Of a stretch of DNA of 24,288 bases, positions 1,441 to 18,393 are shown piece by piece. The number at the start of each line of letters is the position of its first letter. Positions within the stretch are counted from its first letter, which is position 1. The position numbers were made by a program, and so were the translations under genes. Below the pieces are notes generated by a model. It worked only from the letters and a program-made list of their open reading frames with translations, ran no database searches and was not told the DNA's origin. This DNA is from a virus, in the IMG/VR virus record IMGVR_UViG_3300025647_000265, positions 1 through 24,288 of that record; one strand, written 5' to 3'.

Positions 1441-3186
1441 ATGTTAACATCCAAAGAGGTCATTGCGAAGGTAACACGCCTTCAGACTCGTTACGCTAAA
1501 CGCGACCAGCGTATGCGTGACGTTCTATCAGTGCGCCAAGGAGACATCTCCAAGGTTTATCCTGCTATGTTCTCTGAGGATTACCCAAAGCCACTCGTTG
1601 CTAACTTTATTGATGTAGCAGCACGTGACTTAGCAGAGGCTATGGCACCACTTCCAGCCTTTGAATGCTCTGCTACAAATATGGTTTCTGACTCTGCTCG
1701 TAAAGCTGCAGATACCAGAACCCGCATCGCTAACTATTACGTATCATCTAGCGAACTACAGATTCAGATGTACTCCGGTGCTGACTGGTTCAACACTTAT
1801 GGAATGCTACCAGCAGTAGTGGAGATGGATTATGAAACTAATAACCCGCGTATTCGTCTACTTAATCCGTTCGGTGTTTACCCGGAAATCGACAGATTCG
1901 GTCGCTGTATCTCAATCACTCAGGTTGTTCAGTCTGATGCGGAAACTATCGCAGCCCAATACCCAGAGTTCGCAAAGCAAATCCTAGGTGGCAATGCTTA
2001 CATTCAAAACTCTCCTTATGTTTCTCTAGTTCGCTACCACGACAAAGACCAGGATTTAATCTTCCTACCTGAGCGACAGAACCTTGTCCTTGCTAATATC
2101 CCGAATCCAATCGGCAAATGCCTCGCCTCTGTTGCGGTTCGGGCCTCTCTTGATGGCGAAGCTCGCGGTCAGTTTGATGACGTCCTAGCAGTTCAACTTG
2201 CTAGAGCGCGGTTTGCTGTACTGCAGATTCAAGCAGCAGAAAAATCTATCCAAGCACCGATTGCCATTCCGCAGGATGTCCAAGAACTTGCACTTGGCCC
2301 TGATTCGATTATGCGAAGCGCTAATCCACAGGCAATTCGTCGTGTACCGCTAGAACTACCTCCTGGAGTATTTACTGAATCCGGTGTTCTAGAACGAGAA
2401 CTTCGTCTCGGTTCGCGTTATCCAGAAGTTAGAAGCGGTAATCTTGATGCTTCTGTTGTTACTGGTCGTGGCGTACAAGCGCTACAAGCTGGGTTTGATA
2501 CACAGATTCGCTCTGCTCAAGCACAGTTTGCTCGACTATTTACAGATATGGTTGCGCTTTGCTTCGAGGTAGACGAGAAGATATTTGGCAATATGACCAA
2601 AGAGATTCGTGGCTCCGAAGATGGAACACCATTCTCAATGAAGTACGTACCATCTCGCGCTATTGGCGGCGAGTATGGCGTAGATGTTCGTTACGGAATT
2701 ATGTCCGGTATGGACCCCAACCGTGCAATCATTGCACTACTTCAGATGCGTAGCGATAAGTTAGTTTCCCGCGACTATGTACGTCGTGAAATTCCGATGG
2801 AGCTAAATGTTACACAAGAAGAACAACGTGTGGACATTGAAGAGATGCGTGATTCTCTTCGTGTTGCTGTGGCTCAGTATGCACAAGCTATTCCCGCACT
2901 TGCAGCGCAAGGCCAAGACCCTTCGCAAATTGTTTCAAGGATTGCTGAAGTTATTAAAGGCAGACAAAAAGGCAAGGCAATAGAGACTATTGTAGAAGAA
3001 GTCTTTATGCCAGAAGAGCCAGAGATGCCAGAAGTCCCAACAGAAATGATGGGTGGTCAAGTTCCAGCAGCAGGTATGGCCCCAGCCCCTGCCTCGCAGC
3101 CAACTCCAGAAATGATGACTGGTGCGGCCCCTGCTGCTGGCGCTCGTCCCGATATAGCAAGTTTGCTCGCGCAAATCGCAGGTTGA
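1441..3186 (+). CDS. Portal protein (581 aa)
   Basis: This is probably the dodecameric portal at the capsid vertex through which DNA enters and leaves. Length, position directly after the terminase, and architecture fit. A helical N-terminus with a KPLVANFIDVAARDLAEAMA segment is followed by a mixed alpha/beta wing. A central region near residues 343-385 (GRGVQALQAGFDTQ onward, then a long helix) resembles portal stem and clip helices. The C-terminal 60 or so residues are rich in Met, Pro and Ala (MPEEPEMPEVP, APAPASQPTPEMM) and look disordered. The start abuts the upstream stop. No single catalytic motif exists for portals, so the call rests on overall pattern and synteny. A fused head protease is not visible. 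Confidence 0.75.
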   Translation: MLTSKEVIAKVTRLQTRYAKRDQRMRDVLSVRQGDISKVYPAMFSEDYPKPLVANFIDVAARDLAEAMAPLPAFECSATNMVSDSARKAADTRTRIANYYVSSSELQIQMYSGADWFNTYGMLPAVVEMDYETNNPRIRLLNPFGVYPEIDRFGRCISITQVVQSDAETIAAQYPEFAKQILGGNAYIQNSPYVSLVRYHDKDQDLIFLPERQNLVLANIPNPIGKCLASVAVRASLDGEARGQFDDVLAVQLARARFAVLQIQAAEKSIQAPIAIPQDVQELALGPDSIMRSANPQAIRRVPLELPPGVFTESGVLERELRLGSRYPEVRSGNLDASVVTGRGVQALQAGFDTQIRSAQAQFARLFTDMVALCFEVDEKIFGNMTKEIRGSEDGTPFSMKYVPSRAIGGEYGVDVRYGIMSGMDPNRAIIALLQMRSDKLVSRDYVRREIPMELNVTQEEQRVDIEEMRDSLRVAVAQYAQAIPALAAQGQDPSQIVSRIAEVIKGRQKGKAIETIVEEVFMPEEPEMPEVPTEMMGGQVPAAGMAPAPASQPTPEMMTGAAPAAGARPDIASLLAQIAG

Positions 3187-3367: not shown

Positions 3368-3586
3368 TTGAAGAAAGAACCAGATTACATTCCTCGCTCT
3401 GTCCGTCTCGCTGACCTTGCTGTTTTACTCGCAGGTCTATTTCATAATTTAGTAAGTGCGATACATATGTTTGCAGAAGAAGTTTTAGATTTAGCTACAT
3501 ACAATGCAATTAGAAAGAACCAAGTGAATCAGGCTTGGGAACAATTCACAGTAGATTTAGAAACGATGGAGGACAACAATGGCTAG
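3368..3586 (+). CDS. Small protein of unknown function (72 aa), TTG start
   Basis: I do not recognise this family. The chosen start is a TTG preceded by GAGAGGA at about eight bases, with the upstream stop 27 bases away. The protein has a hydrophobic helix-like stretch around residues 16-35 (LAVLLAGLFHNLVSAIHMF), followed by an amphipathic, charged C-terminal half ending LETMEDNNG. The hydrophobic part could be one membrane-associated helix or simply a buried helix. The end overlaps the next gene by eight bases, so the two are probably coupled. Its position between portal and large virion genes suggests a minor structural or assembly role, not demonstrated. Confidence 0.7.
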   Translation: MKKEPDYIPRSVRLADLAVLLAGLFHNLVSAIHMFAEEVLDLATYNAIRKNQVNQAWEQFTVDLETMEDNNG

Positions 3587-3977
3587 AGGTCCATTAGCAG
3601 GAGCATCAGGCCCTGGTAAGTTCTCCAAGAGAACAGATATGAATATGGGTTCAATCGCATACGGCGAAGGAAAAGAAACTGCCGCTATTCAAGCAGGCGC
3701 ACCTATGGCTAGAACCCCAGATGTTCGCGGTATGCCAGCAGGCCAAGTACGTGAGGCCGCAGCACAAGCACCAGTAACTCCATTATTTGCACCATCAACT
3801 CGTCCTGATGAACCAATTACATCAGGTATTGCTATGGGTGCAGGACCCGGACCAGAGGTCCTTGGTATGCAACCAGTACAAGAAAAACTTTCAGACGTAC
3901 TAGCACGTATGCTTCCATACGACCAGAGTGGAGAGGTAGAGATTCTCTATCAGCGTGCGCTTGCGCGAGGTATGTAA
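3579..3977 (+). CDS. Hypothetical protein of the head gene cluster (132 aa)
   Basis: Not recognised. The protein is low in complexity, rich in Gly, Ala, Pro and Met, with few predicted helices until the last 25 residues (LSDVLARMLPYDQSGEVEILYQRALARGM), which look helical. The N-terminus MARGPLAGASGPGKFSKRTDM is basic and flexible. A good Shine-Dalgarno, ATGGAGGAC, lies within the end of the previous gene. The stop codon directly abuts the GTG of the 1583-aa gene, so the two are probably translated in tandem. The flexible body with a terminal helix would suit a linker or head-completion protein, but nothing in the sequence proves it. Confidence 0.7.
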   Translation: MARGPLAGASGPGKFSKRTDMNMGSIAYGEGKETAAIQAGAPMARTPDVRGMPAGQVREAAAQAPVTPLFAPSTRPDEPITSGIAMGAGPGPEVLGMQPVQEKLSDVLARMLPYDQSGEVEILYQRALARGM

Positions 3978-6900
3978 GTGCCACAGGAGAATTTACAAGC
4001 AGCAGCGCTTCGCGCTAACCTTACACCTGCACAGCGTAAGCAAGTTGACGGCTTAGGCAAACTTCTTGATACACATAAGAACTTGCTTGCTATGCCAGCT
4101 CCTGTTGCACAGGCTCAATTTAATCAACTAACACAAGACCAACAGAATGCAATGGTTGGTTTACTCGGCGGAGATGATGACCCAGTAAACCCGCAGCGTG
4201 GTTGGCTTGGTAATGTAAAGCATTATGCTGGTATTGCCGTAAAAGAAACTCTAGGTCGCGGCATCGCAGCACTCGGTGAAGTCTCTGACTTTATGACTCG
4301 CCTTTATAGAACTGGTGCTATTGCGCTAGACCAAGGTGTAGATATAGGCAGAGCTTTTAATATTGCCAATGATAAAGGCGATACAGTATTTAGCCCAACT
4401 CGTATTGCTAAAGCAAAAGCAAAGTTTGGTGCAGAGCGCGTAGGTATTGCTATGCGTGTAGCTCAAGGCGAAACCCTTGACTCCATTATTGCTAATGGAA
4501 CTGAAACTGAAAAAGTTATTGCAGCTAATGCTGCACAGAAAAGAGATGACCTTTTCCAAGATGCGCTAGATGCAGTTCAAGCATCTAAGTACTCACCAGG
4601 TCGCCAATTAGCAAACCTACTTTTACCAGAGCAACTAGAAGGTTCTGGTGCTTTATACAAAGGTATCTCTGGCTTTGCCGATGCAGCCTATAGATTTTTT
4701 GCAGACCCTACGCTTATTCTTGGTAAAGCTAAGAAAGCCTACGATGCTGGTGACTATCTACTATTTAACGTCTTAGGCAAAGAGAAGTTTACCTACGGTC
4801 GCAATCTTATGTCCGTTATGGGACCTGAGAACGTACAAAACCTAGATAGAGTATTTCAAAACCCAGGCGTAGTTAAATTTTTTGACGATTACGGTAAAGG
4901 TTTAGAGGACTTAAGTAAAGCACGTGCAGCTAAAGATACTGCAGCAGGTGCAGAAGCCTCACAGCGTCTACGTAGATTAGCTCCAGAGTTTGGTTCTGCA
5001 GCCGTAGATGAGTTTATTAAGGCTGGAGTAACTAATTCCACTACTGCTAAGAACTATCTACAGAATATAACTGATGTAAAAAGCATTCTTTCTGGTCAAG
5101 CAGCCCGTAGAACACCGCTTGTTCCTGTATTAAACGCTGCTCGCAAGGCTCGCGTTGGTTTCTTTACAGCAACAGATAGAGTTTTTAATATAGACAAGGT
5201 AGGCCAGCGAGTAGTTCAGGCTTTGTATGGCGCATCTCCGCAGCTTGATGACATAGCAACAGGCCTAACTCAACGTTCTGGTGAGATTGCTGACGTAGAA
5301 GCATTCGTTGGGCGCTTTGGAGTTAGAAGATTAGAAGAAGGTGCAGAGAAAGCCACCTGGACAAAGGGTAAAGACGGTGCATTCCGTATGCCTTTGGCTC
5401 AGATTCAAGGACGTCTTGATAGATTTGCTCGCAAGTTCACAACGATTCCGTACTTTCCTAATGGATTCTTTGACCCGATGGCTGCAAACGCACCAGACCA
5501 GATATATCGCCTAGCTCGTTTGGCTAATACTCGTTACCATTCTAGAATTATCTCTGAGGCTTTTGCAGCAGGTAACGAAGGTCAGCGTCGTCAGATATTC
5601 AAAGGTCTATATAACACTATATATGACGTACGTGGAGTCAATAAGTCCACCGGAACCCAACGATTCTTGACAGACTTTGACAAAGTTGGACGTAAGCAAC
5701 AATATTCCACAGGAGTTACTGTACGTACTGTAGATGAAACTACAGGTAAGGTTACCTATACCCGTTACAGTCCATCAAACTTTGACGGTGAAGAACTTGC
5801 CATCAAAGATTGGCAGTTGGCTGAAGGTATTGCTGCGCCATCTGTACAGGATATAGATAGATTTGCTACCCGTTCTGGTCTTATTGACAGAATAATGGGT
5901 GTATCGCACCAGGATTGGGCAAATAAAACTACATCAGCCTGGACTCTATCAACACTCGCGGGTCCAAGATTCCCTGTCCGTAACGCCGCAGAAGACCTCG
6001 GTTTGCACTTACTTGTAGGTGATTCAATGTGGGGAATTGCTAAGGCTAAAACTTTATCGCGTCGTTATTTTGCAGCAAAAGGCGATATGGGTTTTATTAA
6101 CCGTTTATTTGCCCGCCGTATTGCAGACAAAGCCACCAGAGAAATTGAAACCGCTATTAAGGCTGGCGATGTAGATGCAGCTCGTAGGATAACTGCCCGA
6201 GCATTTACAGAATCAAAGTTCGTTAATTACTTTGATGATGAAATAGGCGAGTTTCTTGATGACCTAGTGTCCTATGGTAACCCTGACAGAATGTTAGGAA
6301 ACCTTGGCGAAGGCGGCAAGAACGCATTTCGCGGCGCAGACCGTTATGTTCAAGTAGCTAAAGACATTGAAGATTTTGGTACTGTCGGCGCCCTTGAGAT
6401 TGACAACATAAAATACATCAGAGCTTATGGGAAACCATTTACCTCAATCAATCCTATGATGAGCGACAAAGGCTTGATGGGTATGTATGCTTTAATTGGC
6501 ATTGAGGCCAAAAGTCCTATGTCATCTTTAGTTCTAAAAAACATAGTTCCTGGCAAATTAGAAGACAATAAAGGCGCTATTGATGCTTTGCGTAAGTATT
6601 TAGATGACCTACCTGCGGCGGAACGTAACAGATTCGAGGCTATTCAAAAAGGTTACTCAACTCAGGTTATAGCTGAGAAGAATGTACAAGACATTCTAAA
6701 CCTACTAACCACACGTGAAGGTGGCTTTAACGCTGCGCTTCTAAACAAGATTCGCTTCACTGACGAGGCTGGTAACTCTGTTGTATCTGCCAAGAAACTT
6801 ACTTGGGAAGATATGCAAAAGCTTGCCGATGAAGGCAACCTTCCTGAGTCGGTATATGGCCCAGAGATGATACCTATTTCTGATACAGGTCAATTCTTGC

Positions 6901-8729
6901 CATCAAAGATAGACAAAATTTGGGATATAATGGGCGAGGCTAACGCTCGCTTAACTCGCTACGATTTAGGTTTTGATGCTTTTGCAAAAGTCCGTAAGGA
7001 TATGCGAGCATCTGGTCTTGAGAAGCACCTTATGAACTCCTTTACTAAGGGACTTGAAGGTGATGATTTAGTAAAGGCTACGGTAAAAGCCAAGCAATAC
7101 ATTTCGCAGATGGCTGAAGAAATGGCTACTGCTAGAGTTCTTGCATTCGTAGATAACCCAGCAGTACGTAGCCAACTTGCTATGGCAAGCCGTAACTTTG
7201 CTCGTTTCTACCGTGCAACTGAAGACTTTTATCGTCGTCTTTATCGCGCTGTCAAGTATAACCCTGAGTCTATCCAAAGAGCAGCACTAACTTACGAAGG
7301 TATTTCTCACTCTGGCTTTGTTCAGACTGACGACAACGGTGATGAGTACTTCTTCTACCCAGGTCTAACACCTGTATACAAGGTTATGAATAAGGTGGCT
7401 ACCGTATTTGGTATGCCAGAAGCGTTCAAGGCTCCAATGCCTATTGAGTTCGGTGGCAAGTTAAAGATGATTACGCCATCGATGAACCCAGATTCCTTGT
7501 TCCCGACATTTGCTGGGCCTATCGCAGCAGTTCCACTAGGACTGGTATTTCGTGCAGTTCCTCAACTAGATAAGATTGAAGCTGCGCTAGTTGGTCAGTA
7601 TGGTCAAGACCAACCGTTGATTAACGCTGCACTTCCTAGCCACGTCAACAGGTTCCTTGCATTACTATCAAAGGATGAGCGTTCAAGTCAGTACGCATCA
7701 GCTTTCCGTAAGGCAGCAACTTACCTTGAGGCTACAGGTCACGGCATTGAGCCTAAGATTGACCCAGCAACAGGTCTTGAGATAGCGCCTACACCTGGCG
7801 AAGTTCAGGCTTACAAAGAGAAGCTAGAAGGTTCTACTCTTACAGTTCTTAGCCTACGATTCTTGTTTGGATTCGTAGCACCAGCATCACCGCAGTTAAC
7901 TCTAAAGAGCGAGATGGCTAAGTGGGTACGCGATAATCAACGTACATCCTATAAGCAAGTATTTAGCCAGATGCTAAATCGCTATAACGGTGATATTGAT
8001 AGAGCCACGCAAGAGTGGATTCGTCTATTCCCAGACAAGATGCCATATACAGTATCTGAGTCTGACCGTTCAACCGTAGCGTTGGTTCGCTCTGTAGAAC
8101 AATCAGGTCAATGGGTTGATGAGAACAAGCAACTTCTCAAGGATTATCCAGAAGGCGCTGCATTCTTAATTCCATCTGCAGGTGACTTTGACTTTGATTC
8201 CTACAGAATGATGTTTGATACTGGCCTAAAGGTTAATAAGACTACATCTGACTTCTTGAGAGAAGTACAGACTGCCAAGGAAATCCAGTATTACTATCAA
8301 CAAAAGGACCTATACGAGTCTCAACTTGCCAATACATTTGGCGATGCAGCCAAGAGCCAGTTGCGTAAACAGTGGCAAGTCTGGTCTGACCAATACAAGG
8401 CAACCAAGCCTTTGATGCAAGAAGAACTTGGTGCTGGTGGAGCGCGTCAGATTCAAAGAATAAGAGCGTATGAAGACCTACGTAGAATGCTTAATGACAC
8501 GAGCATAACTACCCAGCCTAAAACTAGAGCGATTCTACGTCAGATGGCTGCAGAGTTTGACCAGTATCAAATGGCTTTAGGTTCAATAACAAGCAATACA
8601 GAGACAGCACAAAATTACAAAGACCTTCTTCAGATGAACATTAAGGCTCGTCTGCAAGAGTTAGCAAAGCAGAATACAAATGCTCAGATGGCATATGACG
8701 TTCTATTTGCTAGATTGATAGGAGAGTAA
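3978..8729 (+). CDS. Giant virion-associated protein, candidate internal/ejected protein (1583 aa)
   Basis: This is the largest gene of the window, with a GTG start immediately after the previous stop. The product is mostly helical, rich in Ala, Arg and Lys, with no signal peptide and no lysozyme, transglycosylase or protease motif that I can see. Two stretches stand out: residues about 652-690 (STLAGPRFPVRNAAEDLGLH region) and about 1068-1105 (ASRNFARFYRATEDFYRRLYR region). Aromatic/Arg/Asn-rich blocks of this sort recur, from memory, in very large phage virion proteins placed beside portal genes. A third segment near residue 1290 contains LRFLFGFVAPASPQLTL. It is longer than T7 gp16 or gp15. 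The lack of hydrophobic repeats and the position before the scaffold argue against a tape measure. An ejected or capsid-internal protein is the best inference. Confidence 0.7.
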   Translation: MPQENLQAAALRANLTPAQRKQVDGLGKLLDTHKNLLAMPAPVAQAQFNQLTQDQQNAMVGLLGGDDDPVNPQRGWLGNVKHYAGIAVKETLGRGIAALGEVSDFMTRLYRTGAIALDQGVDIGRAFNIANDKGDTVFSPTRIAKAKAKFGAERVGIAMRVAQGETLDSIIANGTETEKVIAANAAQKRDDLFQDALDAVQASKYSPGRQLANLLLPEQLEGSGALYKGISGFADAAYRFFADPTLILGKAKKAYDAGDYLLFNVLGKEKFTYGRNLMSVMGPENVQNLDRVFQNPGVVKFFDDYGKGLEDLSKARAAKDTAAGAEASQRLRRLAPEFGSAAVDEFIKAGVTNSTTAKNYLQNITDVKSILSGQAARRTPLVPVLNAARKARVGFFTATDRVFNIDKVGQRVVQALYGASPQLDDIATGLTQRSGEIADVEAFVGRFGVRRLEEGAEKATWTKGKDGAFRMPLAQIQGRLDRFARKFTTIPYFPNGFFDPMAANAPDQIYRLARLANTRYHSRIISEAFAAGNEGQRRQIFKGLYNTIYDVRGVNKSTGTQRFLTDFDKVGRKQQYSTGVTVRTVDETTGKVTYTRYSPSNFDGEELAIKDWQLAEGIAAPSVQDIDRFATRSGLIDRIMGVSHQDWANKTTSAWTLSTLAGPRFPVRNAAEDLGLHLLVGDSMWGIAKAKTLSRRYFAAKGDMGFINRLFARRIADKATREIETAIKAGDVDAARRITARAFTESKFVNYFDDEIGEFLDDLVSYGNPDRMLGNLGEGGKNAFRGADRYVQVAKDIEDFGTVGALEIDNIKYIRAYGKPFTSINPMMSDKGLMGMYALIGIEAKSPMSSLVLKNIVPGKLEDNKGAIDALRKYLDDLPAAERNRFEAIQKGYSTQVIAEKNVQDILNLLTTREGGFNAALLNKIRFTDEAGNSVVSAKKLTWEDMQKLADEGNLPESVYGPEMIPISDTGQFLPSKIDKIWDIMGEANARLTRYDLGFDAFAKVRKDMRASGLEKHLMNSFTKGLEGDDLVKATVKAKQYISQMAEEMATARVLAFVDNPAVRSQLAMASRNFARFYRATEDFYRRLYRAVKYNPESIQRAALTYEGISHSGFVQTDDNGDEYFFYPGLTPVYKVMNKVATVFGMPEAFKAPMPIEFGGKLKMITPSMNPDSLFPTFAGPIAAVPLGLVFRAVPQLDKIEAALVGQYGQDQPLINAALPSHVNRFLALLSKDERSSQYASAFRKAATYLEATGHGIEPKIDPATGLEIAPTPGEVQAYKEKLEGSTLTVLSLRFLFGFVAPASPQLTLKSEMAKWVRDNQRTSYKQVFSQMLNRYNGDIDRATQEWIRLFPDKMPYTVSESDRSTVALVRSVEQSGQWVDENKQLLKDYPEGAAFLIPSAGDFDFDSYRMMFDTGLKVNKTTSDFLREVQTAKEIQYYYQQKDLYESQLANTFGDAAKSQLRKQWQVWSDQYKATKPLMQEELGAGGARQIQRIRAYEDLRRMLNDTSITTQPKTRAILRQMAAEFDQYQMALGSITSNTETAQNYKDLLQMNIKARLQELAKQNTNAQMAYDVLFARLIGE

Positions 8730-8732
8730 CCA

Positions 8733-9455
8733 GTGGCTAAAAAGAAAGGTTTGACCAGCGCACCTGGTCCAACTGAGGTAGGTACCTGGAACAACCAGAT
8801 TATTCCTACTGGCGATACAGTTATATCTGGTACTCCAGCAACTACAGGGTTTGCAGGAGCAACAGCCATAGGTGTCAATCCGCAGGCTCAGGCTCTTTAC
8901 AATATGTCAAATGCAGAAAGAGCGCAGATTGCACAAGCTCTAAAGAATGCTGGCTATAGAGGATTTCCTACCAACGGTCTATACAACCAAGCGCTAGCGA
9001 ATGCTTATTCTTCTGCATTGATGGCAGCACAAACCAGCGCTATGCAGCTAGGTCAACCATTCGACCAGAACTTCTTTACTGGTTTTCTTGGTCAAGAGAT
9101 TGCCGCTCGTAATGTTATGGGTGACGGAACCGGTCCAAAAGTAACTGAGCAAATGGCTGTTGCCACTGATGAACAAGCTAAGTCTATTATTGATGCTGTA
9201 TTCAGAGACCAGTTTGGTCGTTCTGCCAGCCAAAAAGAAATTAAAAAGTATACAACCGCTATCCAAAAGGCTCAGAAAAAAAGTCCGGTAGTTACTACAA
9301 CTACTCGTGTTGGTGGCAAAACAATGGTATCTACAACCGGTGGCATAAATGCTACTCAGTATCTTCTAGACAGAGTTGCTGGAACTGATGAGGCAAAGGC
9401 AAATAAAGTGCTTGGTTTCTATGAAACATTTATGAATGCGCTAGGTGCTGACTAA
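8733..9455 (+). CDS. Virion-associated hypothetical protein (240 aa)
   Basis: Start is a GTG three bases after the upstream stop, with GGAGAG about six bases ahead. Residues 1-45 are flexible (Gly, Thr, Pro). Residues 50-90 (MSNAERAQIAQALKNAGYRG) read like a small helical module of the peptidoglycan-binding-like sort, though I would not assign that. Around residues 145-180 lies DEQAKSIIDAVFRDQFGRSA followed by a Lys-rich helix, a pattern I recall from structural proteins of actinophage-like genomes. A Thr-rich strand segment (VVTTTTRVGGKTMVSTTGG) precedes the C-terminal helix. It is coupled by TAATG to the 549-aa gene. Probably a partner of the neighbouring large virion proteins; no enzymatic role visible. 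Confidence 0.68.
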   Translation: MAKKKGLTSAPGPTEVGTWNNQIIPTGDTVISGTPATTGFAGATAIGVNPQAQALYNMSNAERAQIAQALKNAGYRGFPTNGLYNQALANAYSSALMAAQTSAMQLGQPFDQNFFTGFLGQEIAARNVMGDGTGPKVTEQMAVATDEQAKSIIDAVFRDQFGRSASQKEIKKYTTAIQKAQKKSPVVTTTTRVGGKTMVSTTGGINATQYLLDRVAGTDEAKANKVLGFYETFMNALGAD

Positions 9456-11104
9456 TGGCACAAACATCAAAAGATTTTGAAGACATTGTAAAGCGAGCTA
9501 CGGCAACTATTAAAATTGCCGACCAAGCCTTGCGTTATCTCCGCGACCAAAAGCGCGTTTTGTCACAAGGTGACCTGAACCGTAAGCAAGAGGATTCGTT
9601 GCGTAAGATAAACGAACAAATCAATGAGAATGAAGCTGCAAAGGTTGAGGCAAAGATTGAGTCTGACCAAGCAAAGCGTCTCATCCCTAGCCTTAAGAGC
9701 ATTGAGAATATTGATAAGCAATTAGAGCGAGAGTATGCAGCATATGATAGAGCTGCAAGGACTGGTGGAAAGCCAAACAAATCTAGAATCAATCAGTTGC
9801 TTGCTCAACGTGAAGGCGTCGCAAGAATCCTACTTGGTTATGCACCTGATGCACCTCAAGCTCCAGAAAGTTTTGAAGCAGTAGAAACAGATGTAACTGC
9901 ACCTACTCCAGCCAAGACAACTCTTCAGGCAGATAAGACTGCTGCAGAGCAACAGGCTGCTGAAGAAGCAATAGACCAAAAGCCTGCTGCTGGCGGTAAG
10001 CCAGGTACAGGTAAAGGCGGAGACAAAGATAAAACAACAGCGGTTCCTGGTGTATTTGACCCAGCGGCAGCTCGTATTGGTGAAGAAGTATCTATGGGAG
10101 CAGCGCGTCCTCCTGGAGTTGTTGGTGGAGTAAAGCGCGACCTTCAAAGTCTTCTTGCTCAAACAGAGTTCTGGTATGACCTACCTGACTACATCTTCAA
10201 TCTAGACCCAAAACTAGGTGAACTTCTAGTTAAGGCTGTTGATGAGAACTGGGATAATGAGAAGTTCTTATCTCAAGCAAAGTTAACCACCTGGTGGCAA
10301 AAGAATGCTGCACCTGTACGTCAGCGTATCATTGCAAAGGCTAAGTTTGATGAACTTAGAAACGCTGGTCAGGATGTGGGAAATACTGAGTATGCAATGG
10401 ATACCGCGACAATCCGTCGTAGTGTTCAAGCAAGAGCAAGACAACTAGGCGCTCAGTTAGCAGAACCTCAACTTGAGCAGATTGTAAGTAAGGTTTACAA
10501 CGGATTCTTAGAGAACGATTCTATTGCTATTGATTCATTTATAGCACCTTATATTGGTAAAATATCAAGCATTGTTGGCACCGGTCTACCTGGTGCGGGT
10601 ACTGCAATGACTGGCTTCTCAGGTCAAGCGCTACAGAATTATCAGACACTTCAGAGCATTGCTAGAGCTAACGGTTTAAGTCTAAGAGATGTTCTACCTG
10701 GTATATCAGCAGTTGCTGCCGGTGGAGATTTAGAATCTGCCGTATTGCAAAAACTCGCTACTGGTGAACTTGATATAAACCGCATTGCCCAAGATGCCCG
10801 TATGATTGCAGCAACAGGTCAGCCTGAATATGTCCGTAATCTACTTGGACAAGGTTATGACCTTGAGCAGATATACGCTCCATACAGAGGCGTTATGGCT
10901 TCGGTCTTAGAGTTAAATCCAGAAGAGATTGACCTAAAGGAACTATCAGGATACGGGTTATTCTCTGATAAAGGTGAATCAAACATATTTGATTTTAAGA
11001 GAGCGCTTCGTAAAGACTCTCGCTGGCAGTATACAGAGCAGGCTAAAAGTGAAGTAGCCGATTCAGTTCTTGGCGTACTTCGTGACTTCGGATTCCAGGG
11101 GTAA
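9455..11104 (+). CDS. Virion-associated protein with coiled-coil N-terminus (549 aa)
   Basis: Residues about 5-75 are highly charged and heptad-like (LRKINEQINENEAAKVEAKI), a probable coiled coil. Residues 130-200 form a low-complexity Ala/Thr/Gly/Lys linker (PAAGGKPGTGKGGDKDKTT). Residues about 230-350 hold a helical module with the pattern DPKLGELLVKAVDENWDNE...F...K.TTWWQ, which I recall from structural proteins of other phages of this type. The C-terminal third has Gly-rich turns (GTGLPGAGTAMTGFSG) and helical repeats. The start overlaps the upstream stop (TAATG) with little Shine-Dalgarno, implying coupling. No catalytic residues recognised. It is likely an internal or tail-associated virion protein made with its flanking genes. 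Confidence 0.7.
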   Translation: MAQTSKDFEDIVKRATATIKIADQALRYLRDQKRVLSQGDLNRKQEDSLRKINEQINENEAAKVEAKIESDQAKRLIPSLKSIENIDKQLEREYAAYDRAARTGGKPNKSRINQLLAQREGVARILLGYAPDAPQAPESFEAVETDVTAPTPAKTTLQADKTAAEQQAAEEAIDQKPAAGGKPGTGKGGDKDKTTAVPGVFDPAAARIGEEVSMGAARPPGVVGGVKRDLQSLLAQTEFWYDLPDYIFNLDPKLGELLVKAVDENWDNEKFLSQAKLTTWWQKNAAPVRQRIIAKAKFDELRNAGQDVGNTEYAMDTATIRRSVQARARQLGAQLAEPQLEQIVSKVYNGFLENDSIAIDSFIAPYIGKISSIVGTGLPGAGTAMTGFSGQALQNYQTLQSIARANGLSLRDVLPGISAVAAGGDLESAVLQKLATGELDINRIAQDARMIAATGQPEYVRNLLGQGYDLEQIYAPYRGVMASVLELNPEEIDLKELSGYGLFSDKGESNIFDFKRALRKDSRWQYTEQAKSEVADSVLGVLRDFGFQG

Positions 11105-11106
11105 TA

Positions 11107-12555
11107 ATGGCGAAAAAGAAAAAGAAAAGCACTATACAACGCCTTGCTGAATCTACTGCTACAAGACTTGAAAACCTTGAAAAACTTCAAGCACAGGTAG
11201 AGGAAGCGCGAACAACGTTAACAGAACCTCCTGCCACTGATTCTTATTACGCGGTCAATCCTGCTACTGGTTTAAGTCAAGCACAGACTGAGGCTAGAGC
11301 AGCGCTAGCAGAAGCCCAGAATGTTAGAACCGAACTTGGATTACCAGGCATTCTTTCAACCCCAGCAGGGTCTGCTGGTTCTATAAACACTCCACCAACA
11401 ACTGGACTAAAACAAGGTTATGAATGGTACGCATTTAATCTACCTGGTGGTGGAATTGAATGGCGTCAACGCCCAACAAAGGGAACACTAACAGGTGCCT
11501 ACACCACTTTATTTGGCAGTGGAAACGGCAATGGAAACGGCGGTAACGGTAACGGTGGCGGTGGTAAAACTGTTACCGGAACTTACACAGACCCAGAGAC
11601 CGGCGATGTTTATTTAATTTACTCTGATGGCAGTAGAACTTTACAAGCCAAAGGAACTAAAGCAGCAGATGCCGCTAGAGCAAAAGCAGAAGCAGATGCA
11701 GCAGCAAAAGCAGGTCGTCAATCAGCATTTGATTTGCTATTTCAGCAATTTGCTGCATATGGACTACAGGGATTAGTTGAACCATTAAGAGGTTTAATAG
11801 AGTCAGGTGTATCTCCTGCAGAGTTTACAATTAAATTACGCGAGACCGATGCTTACAAGAAGCGCTTTGCCGCTAATCAAGCCCGTATCCAAAAGGGTCT
11901 ACGTGCGCTATCAGAGGCAGAGTACATCGGACTTGAAGACCAATACCAAGATGTAATGCGTCGCTATGGTTTACCTGATACTTATTATGCTCGCGGAGAT
12001 ATGGGCCGTCAAGAAGGATTTGAGAAGTTTATCGGCGGAGATGTCTCGCCTGTTGAACTAGAAGATAGAATTCAGACAGCACAGCGTAGAGTTATCAACG
12101 CTGCACCTGAAGTTACTGCTTCACTTCGCTCATTCTATCCAGAGATTGGTCAGGGAGATTTGCTCGCATATTTCCTAGACCCAGACAAGGCTATTGAAAA
12201 TATCAAGCGTAAGGTAACTGCTGCTGAAATCGGCGGAGCTGCAACAATGGCTGGTCTTACAACTGGTATGGCTAGAGCTGAAGAACTTGGTCGTTACGGT
12301 GTAACCGGAGAAGCGGCACGTCAAGGATTCCAGACCATTGCAGAAGTTCTACCTCGCGGTAGCCAACTAGCAGAGATTTACAAGCAATCACCATATACAC
12401 AAACCACAGCAGAGCAGGAAGTCTTTGGACTTGCTGGAGCAACAGAAGCGTCTAAGCGACGCAGACAGTTGACTCAACTTGAACAAGCTACATTCTCCGG
12501 TCAAGCCGGAGCTGCTGGTGGCGCTCTAGGCAGAGAACGAGCCGGAGCATTTTAG
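11107..12555 (+). CDS. Virion-associated protein with Gly/Asn linker and helical domain (482 aa)
   Basis: A basic N-terminus (MAKKKKKST) leads into a helical segment. A Gly/Asn hinge at residues about 138-154 (GNGNGNGGNGNGGGG) then separates a compact helical domain from residue 200 onward. That domain has the pattern FDLLFQQFAAYGLQGL...SGVSPAEF, then SEAEYIGLEDQYQDVMRRYGLP, then FLDPDKAIENIKRKVTAAEIGG. I recall this combination from actinophage structural proteins of unknown role. The final 60 residues are Ala/Gly/Gln-rich. The ATG is two bases after the upstream stop. The modular layout (basic end, hinge, helical body) resembles the 549-aa neighbour, suggesting two parts of one virion assembly. 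No enzyme motif seen. Confidence 0.7.
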   Translation: MAKKKKKSTIQRLAESTATRLENLEKLQAQVEEARTTLTEPPATDSYYAVNPATGLSQAQTEARAALAEAQNVRTELGLPGILSTPAGSAGSINTPPTTGLKQGYEWYAFNLPGGGIEWRQRPTKGTLTGAYTTLFGSGNGNGNGGNGNGGGGKTVTGTYTDPETGDVYLIYSDGSRTLQAKGTKAADAARAKAEADAAAKAGRQSAFDLLFQQFAAYGLQGLVEPLRGLIESGVSPAEFTIKLRETDAYKKRFAANQARIQKGLRALSEAEYIGLEDQYQDVMRRYGLPDTYYARGDMGRQEGFEKFIGGDVSPVELEDRIQTAQRRVINAAPEVTASLRSFYPEIGQGDLLAYFLDPDKAIENIKRKVTAAEIGGAATMAGLTTGMARAEELGRYGVTGEAARQGFQTIAEVLPRGSQLAEIYKQSPYTQTTAEQEVFGLAGATEASKRRRQLTQLEQATFSGQAGAAGGALGRERAGAF

Positions 12556-12671: not shown

Positions 12672-13139
12672 ATGTCCAACTATGACTACGAAGACGACGA
12701 TTACAGTGTTGAAGACACTGCAAATGACCTCGTTAAGCAGTTGCGTAAAGCAAATAAGCAGAAAGAAAAAGAACTAGCAGATTTGAAAAGCCAGTTCGAG
12801 AATCTTTCAAAAGCACAAAGAGAACGAGCAATCAAAGACGCCCTCGCTAGTCGCGGGGTAAATCAGAAAATTGCTGCATTTATCCCACAGGATATAGACC
12901 CAACTGAGGAGTCTGTATCAAAATGGCTCAGTGACTATGCCGATGTATTCGGCTTTGAATCTGAGTCAAACCAGGCAACACCTAACGTTGACCCAGCTCA
13001 GGCAAAGCAATATCAGAAGATGACCAAGACAGTTGATGCTGGCTCGGCACCTGATGGAGCAGATGACATTATGCGTCGTCTACTCAATGCTAATAGCCGT
13101 GAAGAGCTTGATGAAGTGATTAGGCAGTCTGGACTCTAA
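12672..13139 (+). CDS. Capsid scaffolding-like protein (155 aa)
   Basis: This probably guides capsid-protein assembly and leaves the shell before maturation. Evidence is position, size and composition. It lies immediately before the major capsid gene. It has a very acidic start (YDYEDDDYSVEDT), then a long charged coiled-coil helix at residues about 18-60 (KQLRKANKQKEKELADLKSQ). A loose Gly/Asp/Gln-rich middle follows, and a short helical C-terminus (MRRLLNANSREELDEVIRQSG) that could touch the capsid protein. The Shine-Dalgarno GGGAGAAGGA is strong, fitting high expression. No protease domain is present here or in the adjacent genes. The fold cannot be proven from sequence alone, and a minor head protein remains possible. 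Confidence 0.68.
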   Translation: MSNYDYEDDDYSVEDTANDLVKQLRKANKQKEKELADLKSQFENLSKAQRERAIKDALASRGVNQKIAAFIPQDIDPTEESVSKWLSDYADVFGFESESNQATPNVDPAQAKQYQKMTKTVDAGSAPDGADDIMRRLLNANSREELDEVIRQSGL

Positions 13140-13171: not shown

Positions 13172-14101
13172 ATGGCAGTTCCTGGTGGTTCACCCACTAC
13201 GGTATCGTCCGTAGCTAACCTCGTCCAAACGGCGTATGACCAATACGTACGTATGGCCCTTCGCTCCATTCCAGTAATGCGTGCGATTGCAGATGTAAAG
13301 CCTGTACAACAGGCTATGCCAGGTTCGTCAGTTGTTTTCTCCATCTACTCAGATTTGAGCGCTGCAACCAGCACTCTGACAGAAACCGCTGACGTTTCCT
13401 CTGTTGCCCTTGGCAACCCATCACAGGTAACCGTAACTCTTCAAGAGTACGGCTCTGCTGTGACAACAACCAAGAAGTTAAACCTAACTTCTTTCAACGA
13501 CGTAGATGCTGCCCTCGCAGACATCATTGCTTACAACGCTGCCGATTCTATCGACCAGGTTGTAGCAGGTGTTCTAACCGGAGGAAGCAACGTAATCTAC
13601 GCAGGTACCGCAACAAACACCAACGGAATCACATCAACAATGACACTCTCTGTTGCTGACATCCGTGAGGCTGTTGTTCAGCTTCGTACCAACAAGGCTG
13701 TACCTCGCATTGGCGAGCTATATGCTGCTTATCTACACCCACGTCAATCTGCTGACCTCCGTGCCGAATCAGGTACCGGCGGATTCCAGGAGTTGACAAA
13801 GTACGTCGAGCGTACACCGTTCGTCGCAGGTGCAGTTGGCGTTCTCGAAGGTGCATTCATCGTCGAAACACCACGTGTTCCATTCGCTGCAAACAGCGGT
13901 GCTGTTAACGTTTACAGCGCTGTTATCGCAGGCCGTGAGGCTCTTGCTGAAGCAATGGCACAAGACATCTCAACCGTTATCGGTCCAGAAATCGACGCAC
14001 TCCGTCGTTTCCGCACCATCGGTTGGTACTACTTCGGTGGCTTCAACCGCCTCCGTGAAGCAGCTCTATATCGCATCGAGTCTGCTACATCAATTAACTA
14101 G
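13172..14101 (+). CDS. Major capsid protein, HK97 fold, N4-gp56-like (309 aa)
   Basis: This is the protein that builds the icosahedral shell. Features that fit the N4 gp56-like branch are a helical N-terminal region (LVQTAYDQYVRMALRS) and a segment PGSSVVFSIYSDL. The characteristic strand TLQEYGSAVTTTKKL follows near residues 89-103. There is then a long helix-rich P-domain region with LHPRQSADLRAES, and a C-terminus with IGPEIDALRRFRTIGWYYFGG and a final helix. Length around 300 aa is normal for the family. The Shine-Dalgarno AGAAAGGTGG is strong. Codons are noticeably richer in C-ending forms (GTT/GTC, AAC, ATC, TTC) than in the flanking large genes, as expected for an abundantly made protein. 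A long hairpin follows the stop. Confidence 0.88.
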   Translation: MAVPGGSPTTVSSVANLVQTAYDQYVRMALRSIPVMRAIADVKPVQQAMPGSSVVFSIYSDLSAATSTLTETADVSSVALGNPSQVTVTLQEYGSAVTTTKKLNLTSFNDVDAALADIIAYNAADSIDQVVAGVLTGGSNVIYAGTATNTNGITSTMTLSVADIREAVVQLRTNKAVPRIGELYAAYLHPRQSADLRAESGTGGFQELTKYVERTPFVAGAVGVLEGAFIVETPRVPFAANSGAVNVYSAVIAGREALAEAMAQDISTVIGPEIDALRRFRTIGWYYFGGFNRLREAALYRIESATSIN

Positions 14102-16062: not shown

Positions 16063-17302
<1,240 letters not shown>

Positions 17303-17313
17303 AATCTGCTACT

Positions 17314-18393
17314 ATGAAAGTAGCTGTCTATACCATTGCCTTAAACGAAGCAAAGCACGTCAAGCGCTGGTATGAATCTAGCAAAGATGCTGATTATCAT
17401 TTAATCTGCGATACAGGCTCAACGGATGATACTGTTGAGATAGCAGAGAGTCTAGGCATCAAAGTAGTCAAATGTAAGATAACACCATTTAGGTTTGATG
17501 ATGCTAGAAACATTAGTTTGTTTACGCTACCTGAAGATATTGATTACTGCGTAGCCTTAGATATGGATGAGGTTATGGTTCCAGGCTGGAGGCCTGAACT
17601 AGAGAAAGCCTTTGAAGAAGGAACAGATAGACCGCAGTATAGATTTATTACTGACTGGGATGCTGAAGGTAAACCAGCGGTAGAGTTTGATGGATTCAGA
17701 ATCCACAGACGTCACGGCGTCAGATGGATATATCCAATCCACGAAGTGCCAAGCACTTACGATGGTACAGATGTACGCAAGAAGTATAACTTTGAGATAC
17801 ATCACGTACCGGATAAAACTAAATCAAGAGGGCAATACCTGCCGATGCTTGAGATGGCAGCTAAAGAGAGTCCTGATTCTAGAAATCTTTATTACCTCGG
17901 GCGAGAATATTTCTACCGCCAGATGTATACAGAATGCGGTACTACGCTTAAGCAATACTTAGAGAAGTCTGTATTCAAAGCTGAGATGGGTTACGCAATG
18001 CGAATGCTTGCTAAATGTGAACCTGAAGAAGCTGAGGAATGGCTGACTAAATCTATAGAAACCTTCCCGTGTAGAGAAGCGCTACTGGCTTTGGCTAATC
18101 ATTACTATATGACTCAGCAATGGGCTGAGTGTGTATTAGTCTCAGAAGAAGCCTTAAAAGTTACACAGAAGCCAACAGAGTTCCTATCCGAAGGTTGGGC
18201 TTGGGGACATATGGCAGATGACTTGATTGCAGTTTGTTCCTGGCAACTAAATGATTTTAAGAAAGCATATAAGCACGGCAAGGTAGCGGCAGAGATGTCG
18301 CCTAACGATGAAAGGCTACAGAAAAACCTAGCCTTTTACAAGGAGAAGAAAGATGCCATCATTCGACCAGTTAGTCGACGAGGTAAAAAGTAA
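17314..18393 (+). CDS. Glycosyltransferase family 2-type protein with TPR-like C-terminus (359 aa)
   Basis: A GT-A fold domain at residues about 1-165 has the expected order: IALNEA (8-13), DTGSTDDT (33-40), RFDDARN (60-66) and the metal-binding DMD in LDMDEV (83-85). FRIHRRHGVRWIYPIHE follows. It should transfer a sugar from a nucleotide-sugar donor; the acceptor is unknown. Residues about 185-345 are helical pairs (YYLGREYFYRQMYTECGTTL, ALLALANHYYMTQQWAEC), which look like TPR repeats and would bind a protein acceptor. It starts 11 bases after the collagen-like gene with a poor ribosome site and overlaps the next gene by 41 bases. Context favours glycosylation of a virion protein, most simply the Thr-rich collagen tract. 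No signal or membrane segment, so it is probably cytoplasmic. Confidence 0.9.
   Translation: MKVAVYTIALNEAKHVKRWYESSKDADYHLICDTGSTDDTVEIAESLGIKVVKCKITPFRFDDARNISLFTLPEDIDYCVALDMDEVMVPGWRPELEKAFEEGTDRPQYRFITDWDAEGKPAVEFDGFRIHRRHGVRWIYPIHEVPSTYDGTDVRKKYNFEIHHVPDKTKSRGQYLPMLEMAAKESPDSRNLYYLGREYFYRQMYTECGTTLKQYLEKSVFKAEMGYAMRMLAKCEPEEAEEWLTKSIETFPCREALLALANHYYMTQQWAECVLVSEEALKVTQKPTEFLSEGWAWGHMADDLIAVCSWQLNDFKKAYKHGKVAAEMSPNDERLQKNLAFYKEKKDAIIRPVSRRGKK

Follow-up and report, generated by a model that had tools for sequence, protein, structure and literature searches.

Nearly a fifth of an IMG/VR virus record of 24,288 bases (the whole of which was analysed and is here called the window) is taken up by one gene, and the question that it raises is what so large a phage protein does. 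A first-pass annotation, made from the sequence, had placed this gene between portal and scaffold, and this is so; its 4752 of 24288 bases (19.6%) lie between the portal on one side and the scaffold-like gene and MCP on the other. The annotation went on to suggest an ejected protein, in a type of phage where such proteins are poorly described, and here the support is indirect, coming from the exclusion of cysteine, the gene order, podovirus relatives, a link to gp9 of Streptomyces phages, wall hydrolases and exchange of the cassette. We argue that the giant protein (BIG) is probably the giant among the ejection (internal virion) proteins of a short-tailed phage whose hosts are freshwater actinobacteria, and that BIG, with g132, g240, g549 and g482 (Table 1), would be packaged, ejected and refolded into a conduit for DNA. 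The evidence concerns this cassette, that is, g132, the giant and the two or three genes that follow, rather than the single gene on which the annotation had focused.

Gene order, conservation and predicted structure

The window holds, in order, a TerL fragment, a basic 110-aa protein, the portal, g132, BIG, g240, g549, g482, the scaffold-like gene, MCP and a tail/fibre region. The protein between TerL and portal (1108-1440) is short, rich in Lys and Ala, and cysteine-free; farther along are a 301-aa collagen-like protein with GPT-rich repeats (16397-17302) and, amid structural genes, a glycosyltransferase-like gene with 8 cysteines (17314-18393; phrog_13126, E 5e-117). BIG starts with GTG immediately 3' of the TAA of the upstream gene. 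Its frame is unbroken in 58 more non-redundant full-length relatives, at identities of 43-79%, and is therefore not a product of chance. Scans of IMG/VR returned 4 loci with BIG as the query, 49 with one relative, and at least 577 confirmed relatives, among 600 pattern matches listed, with a 23-row alignment; a 93% identity filter kept 62 of 94 sequences, and the removal of three Streptomyces phages (L123-L125) left the window and 58 relatives. None of 39 pattern matches in bacterial genome contigs was confirmed as a relative of BIG. All 58 relatives share the order portal-g132-BIG-(g240)-g549-g482-scaffold-MCP as far as their contigs extend, with g240 and g549 present either as separate genes or as one fusion. 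Two g549 homologues (L064 9413-12076, 887 aa; L117 9724-12399, 891 aa) have a C-terminal module that, by eye, seems to be repeated in tandem in several copies.

Table 1. Features of the giant-protein cassette and adjoining genes in the window
Feature	Position	Strand	Description
portal	1441..3186	+	581 aa; outside cassette; 44% identical to FlowerPower 'portal protein'
g132	3579..3977	+	132 aa, phrog_8200; first gene of cassette; left swap point lies inside its homologue in related phages
BIG (giant protein)	3978..8729	+	1583 aa, cysteine-free, predicted helical throughout; proposed main ejection protein
signature block 1	4659..4757	+	BIG residues 228-260 (GISGFADAAYRFFADPTLILGKAKKAYDA region); collinear with Streptomyces phage gp9 residues 203-235
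PRFPVRNAAEDLG block	5964..6002	+	BIG residues 663-675
signature block 2	7164..7340	+	BIG residues 1063-1121 (RSQLAMASRNFARFYRATEDFYRR ... GFVQTDDNG); collinear with gp9 residues 1051-1108
hydrophobic segment	7494..7550	+	BIG residues 1173-1191; 19-residue Kyte-Doolittle value 1.63
hydrophobic segment	7824..7880	+	BIG residues 1283-1301; column average 1.48
g240	8733..9455	+	240 aa, cysteine-free; joined to g549 homologue in many relatives
g549	9455..11104	+	549 aa, cysteine-free; residues 242-548 are a phrog_6654 module
g482	11107..12555	+	482 aa, phrog_8424, cysteine-free; last gene of cassette; right swap point at end of its homologue
scaffold-like	12672..13139	+	155 aa, phrog_7813, weak phrog_3760 scaffolding match; outside cassette
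MCP	13172..14101	+	309 aa, phrog_1357; outside cassette

Both sequence blocks that had drawn the attention of the first-pass annotation are present. The ASRNFARFYRA...RRLYR block, at about residues 1071-1091, sits inside the best-conserved stretch of BIG (mean conservation 0.86 over the 50-residue block 1051-1100) and is one of two stretches that align to the Streptomyces phage protein; in the PRFPVRNAAEDLG block R668, N669, E672 and D673 are invariant or almost so across the 59 rows, and this block pairs with GYAPRALADDFLG of gp9 in a weak hhalign match. The two conserved hydrophobic segments are comparable with the top segment of T7 gp16 (1.44 on the Kyte-Doolittle scale); they are borderline for insertion and could make contact with a membrane.

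BIG matches no Pfam family at E<=1, no PHROGs family at E<=0.01 (there is a single match at 0.1) and no PDB sequence. The lack of a recognisable enzyme domain, as first annotated, is thus borne out in Pfam and PHROGs, and neither collection yields the clear tape-measure or enzyme-family profile that the annotation had said would count against an ejected protein. A tail tape-measure protein would likewise be large and helical; one of 23 family members matches a tape-measure PHROG (E 0.011), and there are low-ranking Foldseek matches to such proteins with probability <=0.12. However, BIG is encoded between portal and scaffold and away from the tail genes, no tail-tube family was found among 10 window genes scanned, and relatives are podoviruses by electron microscopy. 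Gene position and podovirus relatives led us to reject this reading, which we hold to be most improbable.

Structure prediction by segments, which had been put forward as a check, gave a mixed outcome. The models of the two halves of BIG are poor (mean pLDDT 59 and 66, pTM 0.29 and 0.36), and Foldseek found nothing in the PDB at E<=0.001; the low-confidence model of the N-terminal half is nevertheless matched by Foldseek, independently of the sequence profiles, to gp9 of Streptomyces phage Manuel (E 9e-6, probability 1.00). Against BFVD, the C-terminal half has four matches at E<=2e-6, all to uncharacterised or unnamed proteins. The best VIA-align Z scores, 6.5 and 4.7, are at the level that the tool's own notes give as chance for helical proteins; the matches listed contain no ejection protein of T7, P22 or N4, which does not imply their exclusion.

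Relationship to gp9 of Streptomyces podoviruses

In pairwise comparison the link between BIG and gp9 is faint. BLAST gives no significant match, the public phrog_10618 model does not match BIG, and hhalign returns probability 9 against one gp9, and 24 (E 8e-4) and 1 against a gp9 alignment. These matches were too weak to stand alone, and so we built profiles of 60 window-type sequences including that of Planktophila phage E7 (A), 14 of the type of Planktophila phage F5 (B1) and 30 Streptomyces-type sequences (B2), and searched each against every group and against reversed and shuffled decoys. Profile A finds B2 with a best E of 1.4e-5 (12/30 below 1e-3; best decoy 0.07), and B2 finds A with a best E of 2.3e-5 (14/60; best decoy 0.22); the matches sit in two collinear blocks. 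A sensitive profile search, the other check proposed at the outset, identifies the gp9 family, with decoys at 0.07 or worse. B2 also finds all 14 of the F5 type (E 8e-10; best decoy 0.22). Searched directly, A reaches the F5 type at 0.033 against a decoy at 0.07, which is not clearly above the decoys, so that the connection between them runs through the Streptomyces type; by hhalign and BLASTP the F5 giant has no significant match to the window and E7 giants. On these sequence comparisons, BIG is related to the gp9 family (phrog_10618 and relatives) of actinobacterial podoviruses.

Gene context runs parallel to these matches. Like BIG, gp9 of the Beephvirinae (cluster BF, phrog_10618) follows the portal and small genes and precedes gp10-gp13 and the scaffold-MCP pair, and it is a protein of about 1600 aa that is effectively cysteine-free and carries the two collinear conserved blocks. 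Neighbours of phrog_8200, phrog_6654 and phrog_8424 type accompany the giant in both the window and F5; FlowerPower has the latter two. The corresponding place in FlowerPower and Abafar is taken by a 'hypothetical protein' of 1635-1644 aa, after which come gp10, an NlpC/P60 peptidase, an SLT glycosylase and a phrog_8424 protein. FlowerPower gp11 and gp12 (L054 12173-14767) are paralogues with a C-terminal module that is 44% identical and with differing wall hydrolases at the N-terminus.

Those two hydrolase-bearing paralogues are the feature that sets gp9 loci apart from the window cassette, which lacks them. The C-terminal module that the peptidase and glycosylase share is found in g549 (21% identity, E 1e-11), and in Streptomyces phages this phrog_6654 module bears NlpC/P60 or SLT hydrolase domains. 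Among loci that include the whole giant and the 4.2 kb following it, NlpC/P60 is present in 21/21 gp9 cassettes and SLT in 20/21; a recognisable wall hydrolase is present in 0/51 A, 0/9 B1 and 0/5 E7-type freshwater loci. Separately, 0/43 g549 homologues have a convincing hydrolase match in Pfam. The lack of a recognisable hydrolase in the freshwater cassettes may reflect a different wall.

Among named phages BIG matches OX376640 (E7) only, at 27% identity. The portal matches 31 records, comprising 29 Streptomyces podoviruses and two Planktophila phages, of which the latter are nearest (53%), and every portal relative with a known host infects actinobacteria; since these are its matches, the host of the BIG phage is very probably an actinobacterium too. 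The Streptomyces relatives are described as podoviruses by electron microscopy (PMC9753666), and a short tail is known for them alone.

Cysteine exclusion and cassette exchange

BIG, its 58 relatives, the E7 giant and 14 F5-type giants have no cysteine in 94,471 + 25,100 residues, and the homologues of g132, BIG, g240, g549 and g482 at the 58 loci have none in 151,962. At the same loci TerL has 135 cysteines in 14,991 residues (9.0 per 1000) and the portals 143 in 25,042 (5.7 per 1000). These counts come from related sequences and are not independent; for the window taken by itself, at the rate of its tail region, the probability of no cysteine is 2e-4 for BIG and 9e-8 for the cassette. The scaffold (0 in 5,885 residues) and MCP (1 in 7,775) of these loci are nearly free of cysteine as well, so that ejected proteins are not alone in this trait. 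Cysteines do occur in 6/30 Streptomyces-type giants, one or two in each, all at residues 8-43 when the longest start is taken; the longest-start giant of FlowerPower (L186) has one in this interval, and the shorter annotated gp9 has none. The NlpC/P60 protein of all 21 Streptomyces-type cassettes (21/21) has a single cysteine, in every case within DCSG, which we take to be the catalytic motif; the cassette thus tolerates cysteine where chemistry requires it.

The same exclusion is seen in established ejection proteins. T7 gp15 and gp16, P22 gp7, gp20 and gp16 and the N4 vRNAP are all cysteine-free, and T7 gp14 has one cysteine; TerL, portal and most tail proteins of T7, P22 and N4 are not cysteine-free. 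Passages of two papers tie the absence of cysteine from vRNAP to its passage through the tail or the envelope/periplasm (PMC2784036, PMC3715699), and, in the passages searched on ejection and internal virion proteins, vRNAP and vRNAP-like giants are the only ones for which cysteine is raised. Cysteine exclusion offers an easy genome-level marker for further candidate ejected proteins.

The limits of the unit are indicated by two cultured phages. Planktophila phages E7 (OX376640) and F5 (OX376641) are the first cultured phages of Nanopelagicales, and the paper reporting them left an '8 kbp island' unexplained (PMC10202952); both records are filed as 'Caudovirales sp. ct2KA10' and are unannotated, the phage names being those of the paper. 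Aligned with one another, the two genomes are 96.3% identical up to base 89 of the g132 homologue, where alignment ends, and identity (97.7%) resumes in the final 10 bases of the g482 homologue. Because these breaks bracket the cassette, the island is the giant-protein cassette, which gives an identity to a segment for which, like gp9, the literature searched assigns no function (the phage names searched occur in PMC10202952 only).

The E7 version (L131 8373-16921) and the F5 version cannot be aligned with each other and are both cysteine-free. The E7 (LanE43AprE7) giant resembles BIG in its cassette, in its lack of cysteine and in 27-28% identity over most of its length; it differs in being 1764 aa long and in belonging to a clade where its cassette alternates with the F5 type. 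The F5 giant, of 1711 aa, is cysteine-free, matches phrog_10618 (3e-13) and has companions of phrog_6654, phrog_8424 and phrog_8200 type; judged by sequence relationship, the F5 cassette is a diverged allele of the E7/window module.

Both cassette types co-occur in one clade in IMG/VR. On well-supported branches of the MCP tree the cassette type must have changed at least four times, and on the portal tree at least twice for the E7 type and once for the F5 type; since MCP itself may recombine, what is counted here is change in linkage. The left break falls inside the g132 homologue in 7/8 pairings (at base 89 in four, base 108 in one and base 192 in two), and in all six of these that have sequence on both sides the right break comes 2-10 bases before the g482 homologue ends; the eighth pairing is too divergent for its breaks to be placed. 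The alignments indicate that related viruses swap the cassette as one unit, and the trees that they do so repeatedly. Natural exchange thereby delimits a functional unit, and with its limits so marked a direct test is possible in two cultured phages of one host.

These swaps bear on whether BIG might instead be an internal assembly protein, such as a core scaffold left behind when the DNA leaves, or else a fixed part of the head or neck. Its gene is close to that of the scaffold, and scaffold and MCP share its near-absence of cysteine; but the cassette is swapped while the adjoining scaffold, MCP and portal are unchanged, and Streptomyces cassettes encode wall hydrolases. Exchange beside unchanged head genes, taken with these hydrolases, fits a role in entry and not in assembly, and we judge an assembly protein or fixed head part decidedly unlikely.

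Comparison with known ejection systems

The precedent for exchange of a whole set is P22. P22 is reported to remain viable when its three ejection genes are all replaced by those of Sf6, L, CUS-3 or HK620, but not when gp16 or gp20 is replaced singly, and the HK620 set allows P22 to escape SieA exclusion in part (PMC10883804). The exchange between E7 and F5 shows in nature a co-adapted set at work with head and tail unchanged, and this, with the P22 precedent, is among our grounds for proposing an ejectosome. The proteins of the cassette (g132, BIG, g240, g549 and g482) would be loaded into the head at assembly, and we infer that they would pass out by way of portal and tail, wholly or partly unfolded and without the hazard of disulfides, to refold in the cell envelope as part of a channel by which DNA enters. 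Against this stand the poor structure models with no significant PDB match, the lack of sequence similarity to ejection proteins of T7, P22 or N4, the near-absence of cysteine from scaffold and MCP too, the missing wall hydrolase of the freshwater cassettes and the borderline hydrophobicity of the two segments. A broader proposal, which we find evenly balanced, is that actinobacterial podoviruses share a DNA-entry cartridge, packaged in the head and exchangeable, with two or more far-diverged types (window/E7 and F5/Streptomyces), purged of cysteine save for one catalytic residue, and that the types alternate in freshwater phages of the same host under selection from superinfection exclusion or from differences in the envelope. 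That swapping serves to escape entry-blocking proteins is one guess.

The sets of T7 (gp14/gp15/gp16) and P22 (gp7/gp20/gp16) resemble the BIG cassette in being adjacent genes for helical proteins, one or two of them very large, and cysteine-free apart from the single residue of gp14; the P22 set, like the cassette, is replaceable as a unit. The window itself displays the T7/P22-type trait of a run of neighbouring genes, one of them very large, beside the head genes, and the short tail is seen in the Streptomyces relatives. They differ in that the T7 and P22 genes come after scaffold and MCP, rather than before as with BIG, and in their Gram-negative hosts. According to PMC8954989, it is podoviruses infecting Gram-negative bacteria that have ejection proteins, phi29-like phages lacking them, and such proteins are often paired by size and synteny alone. 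An HMM of BIG found no match above decoys among the ejection proteins of T7, P22 and N4. It is likely that the cassette works as these proteins do, and its resemblance to the T7/P22 ejectosomes would be one of analogy. We regard it as a strong ejectosome candidate in podoviruses of actinobacteria, which are among the commonest freshwater bacteria, and one with no sequence relation to known ejectosomes.

N4 vRNAP, a protein known from the literature to be ejected, is like BIG a cysteine-free giant, and it raises the possibility that BIG is cargo, an enzyme or effector ('polyvalent' protein) packaged and ejected to act in the cytoplasm. The size, predicted helicity and lack of cysteine of BIG recall vRNAP, and PMC10747016 proposes a vRNAP for another giant on such grounds; there is a weak match to Pfam vRNAP_dom (E 0.055) in 1/23 family members, and the giant of a Bacillus podophage bears the polyvalent domain LPD38. 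Yet vRNAP is an enzyme of 3500 aa, whereas BIG has no recognised catalytic domain, matches no Pfam enzyme family and has an HMM that picks out N4 vRNAP no better than decoys. RNAP motif B is missing by a simple pattern, a weak point in that this pattern misses the motif of N4 too. Moreover, a sigma factor gene is present in the Streptomyces relatives and in E7/F5 (PMC10202952), which indicates use of the host polymerase and tells against a vRNAP. We consider cargo unlikely, and an ejection protein that helps to form the entry route the better account of BIG.

A further set of large genes occurs in Bacillus phage Page (L203 17622-24825), where three adjacent cysteine-free genes encode proteins of 417 aa, 246 aa (SLT, partial NlpC) and 1679 aa (LPD38). 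The similarity of the Page giant to BIG is not above chance, and Page, a podophage of a Gram-positive host, shows an ejectosome-like pattern independently.
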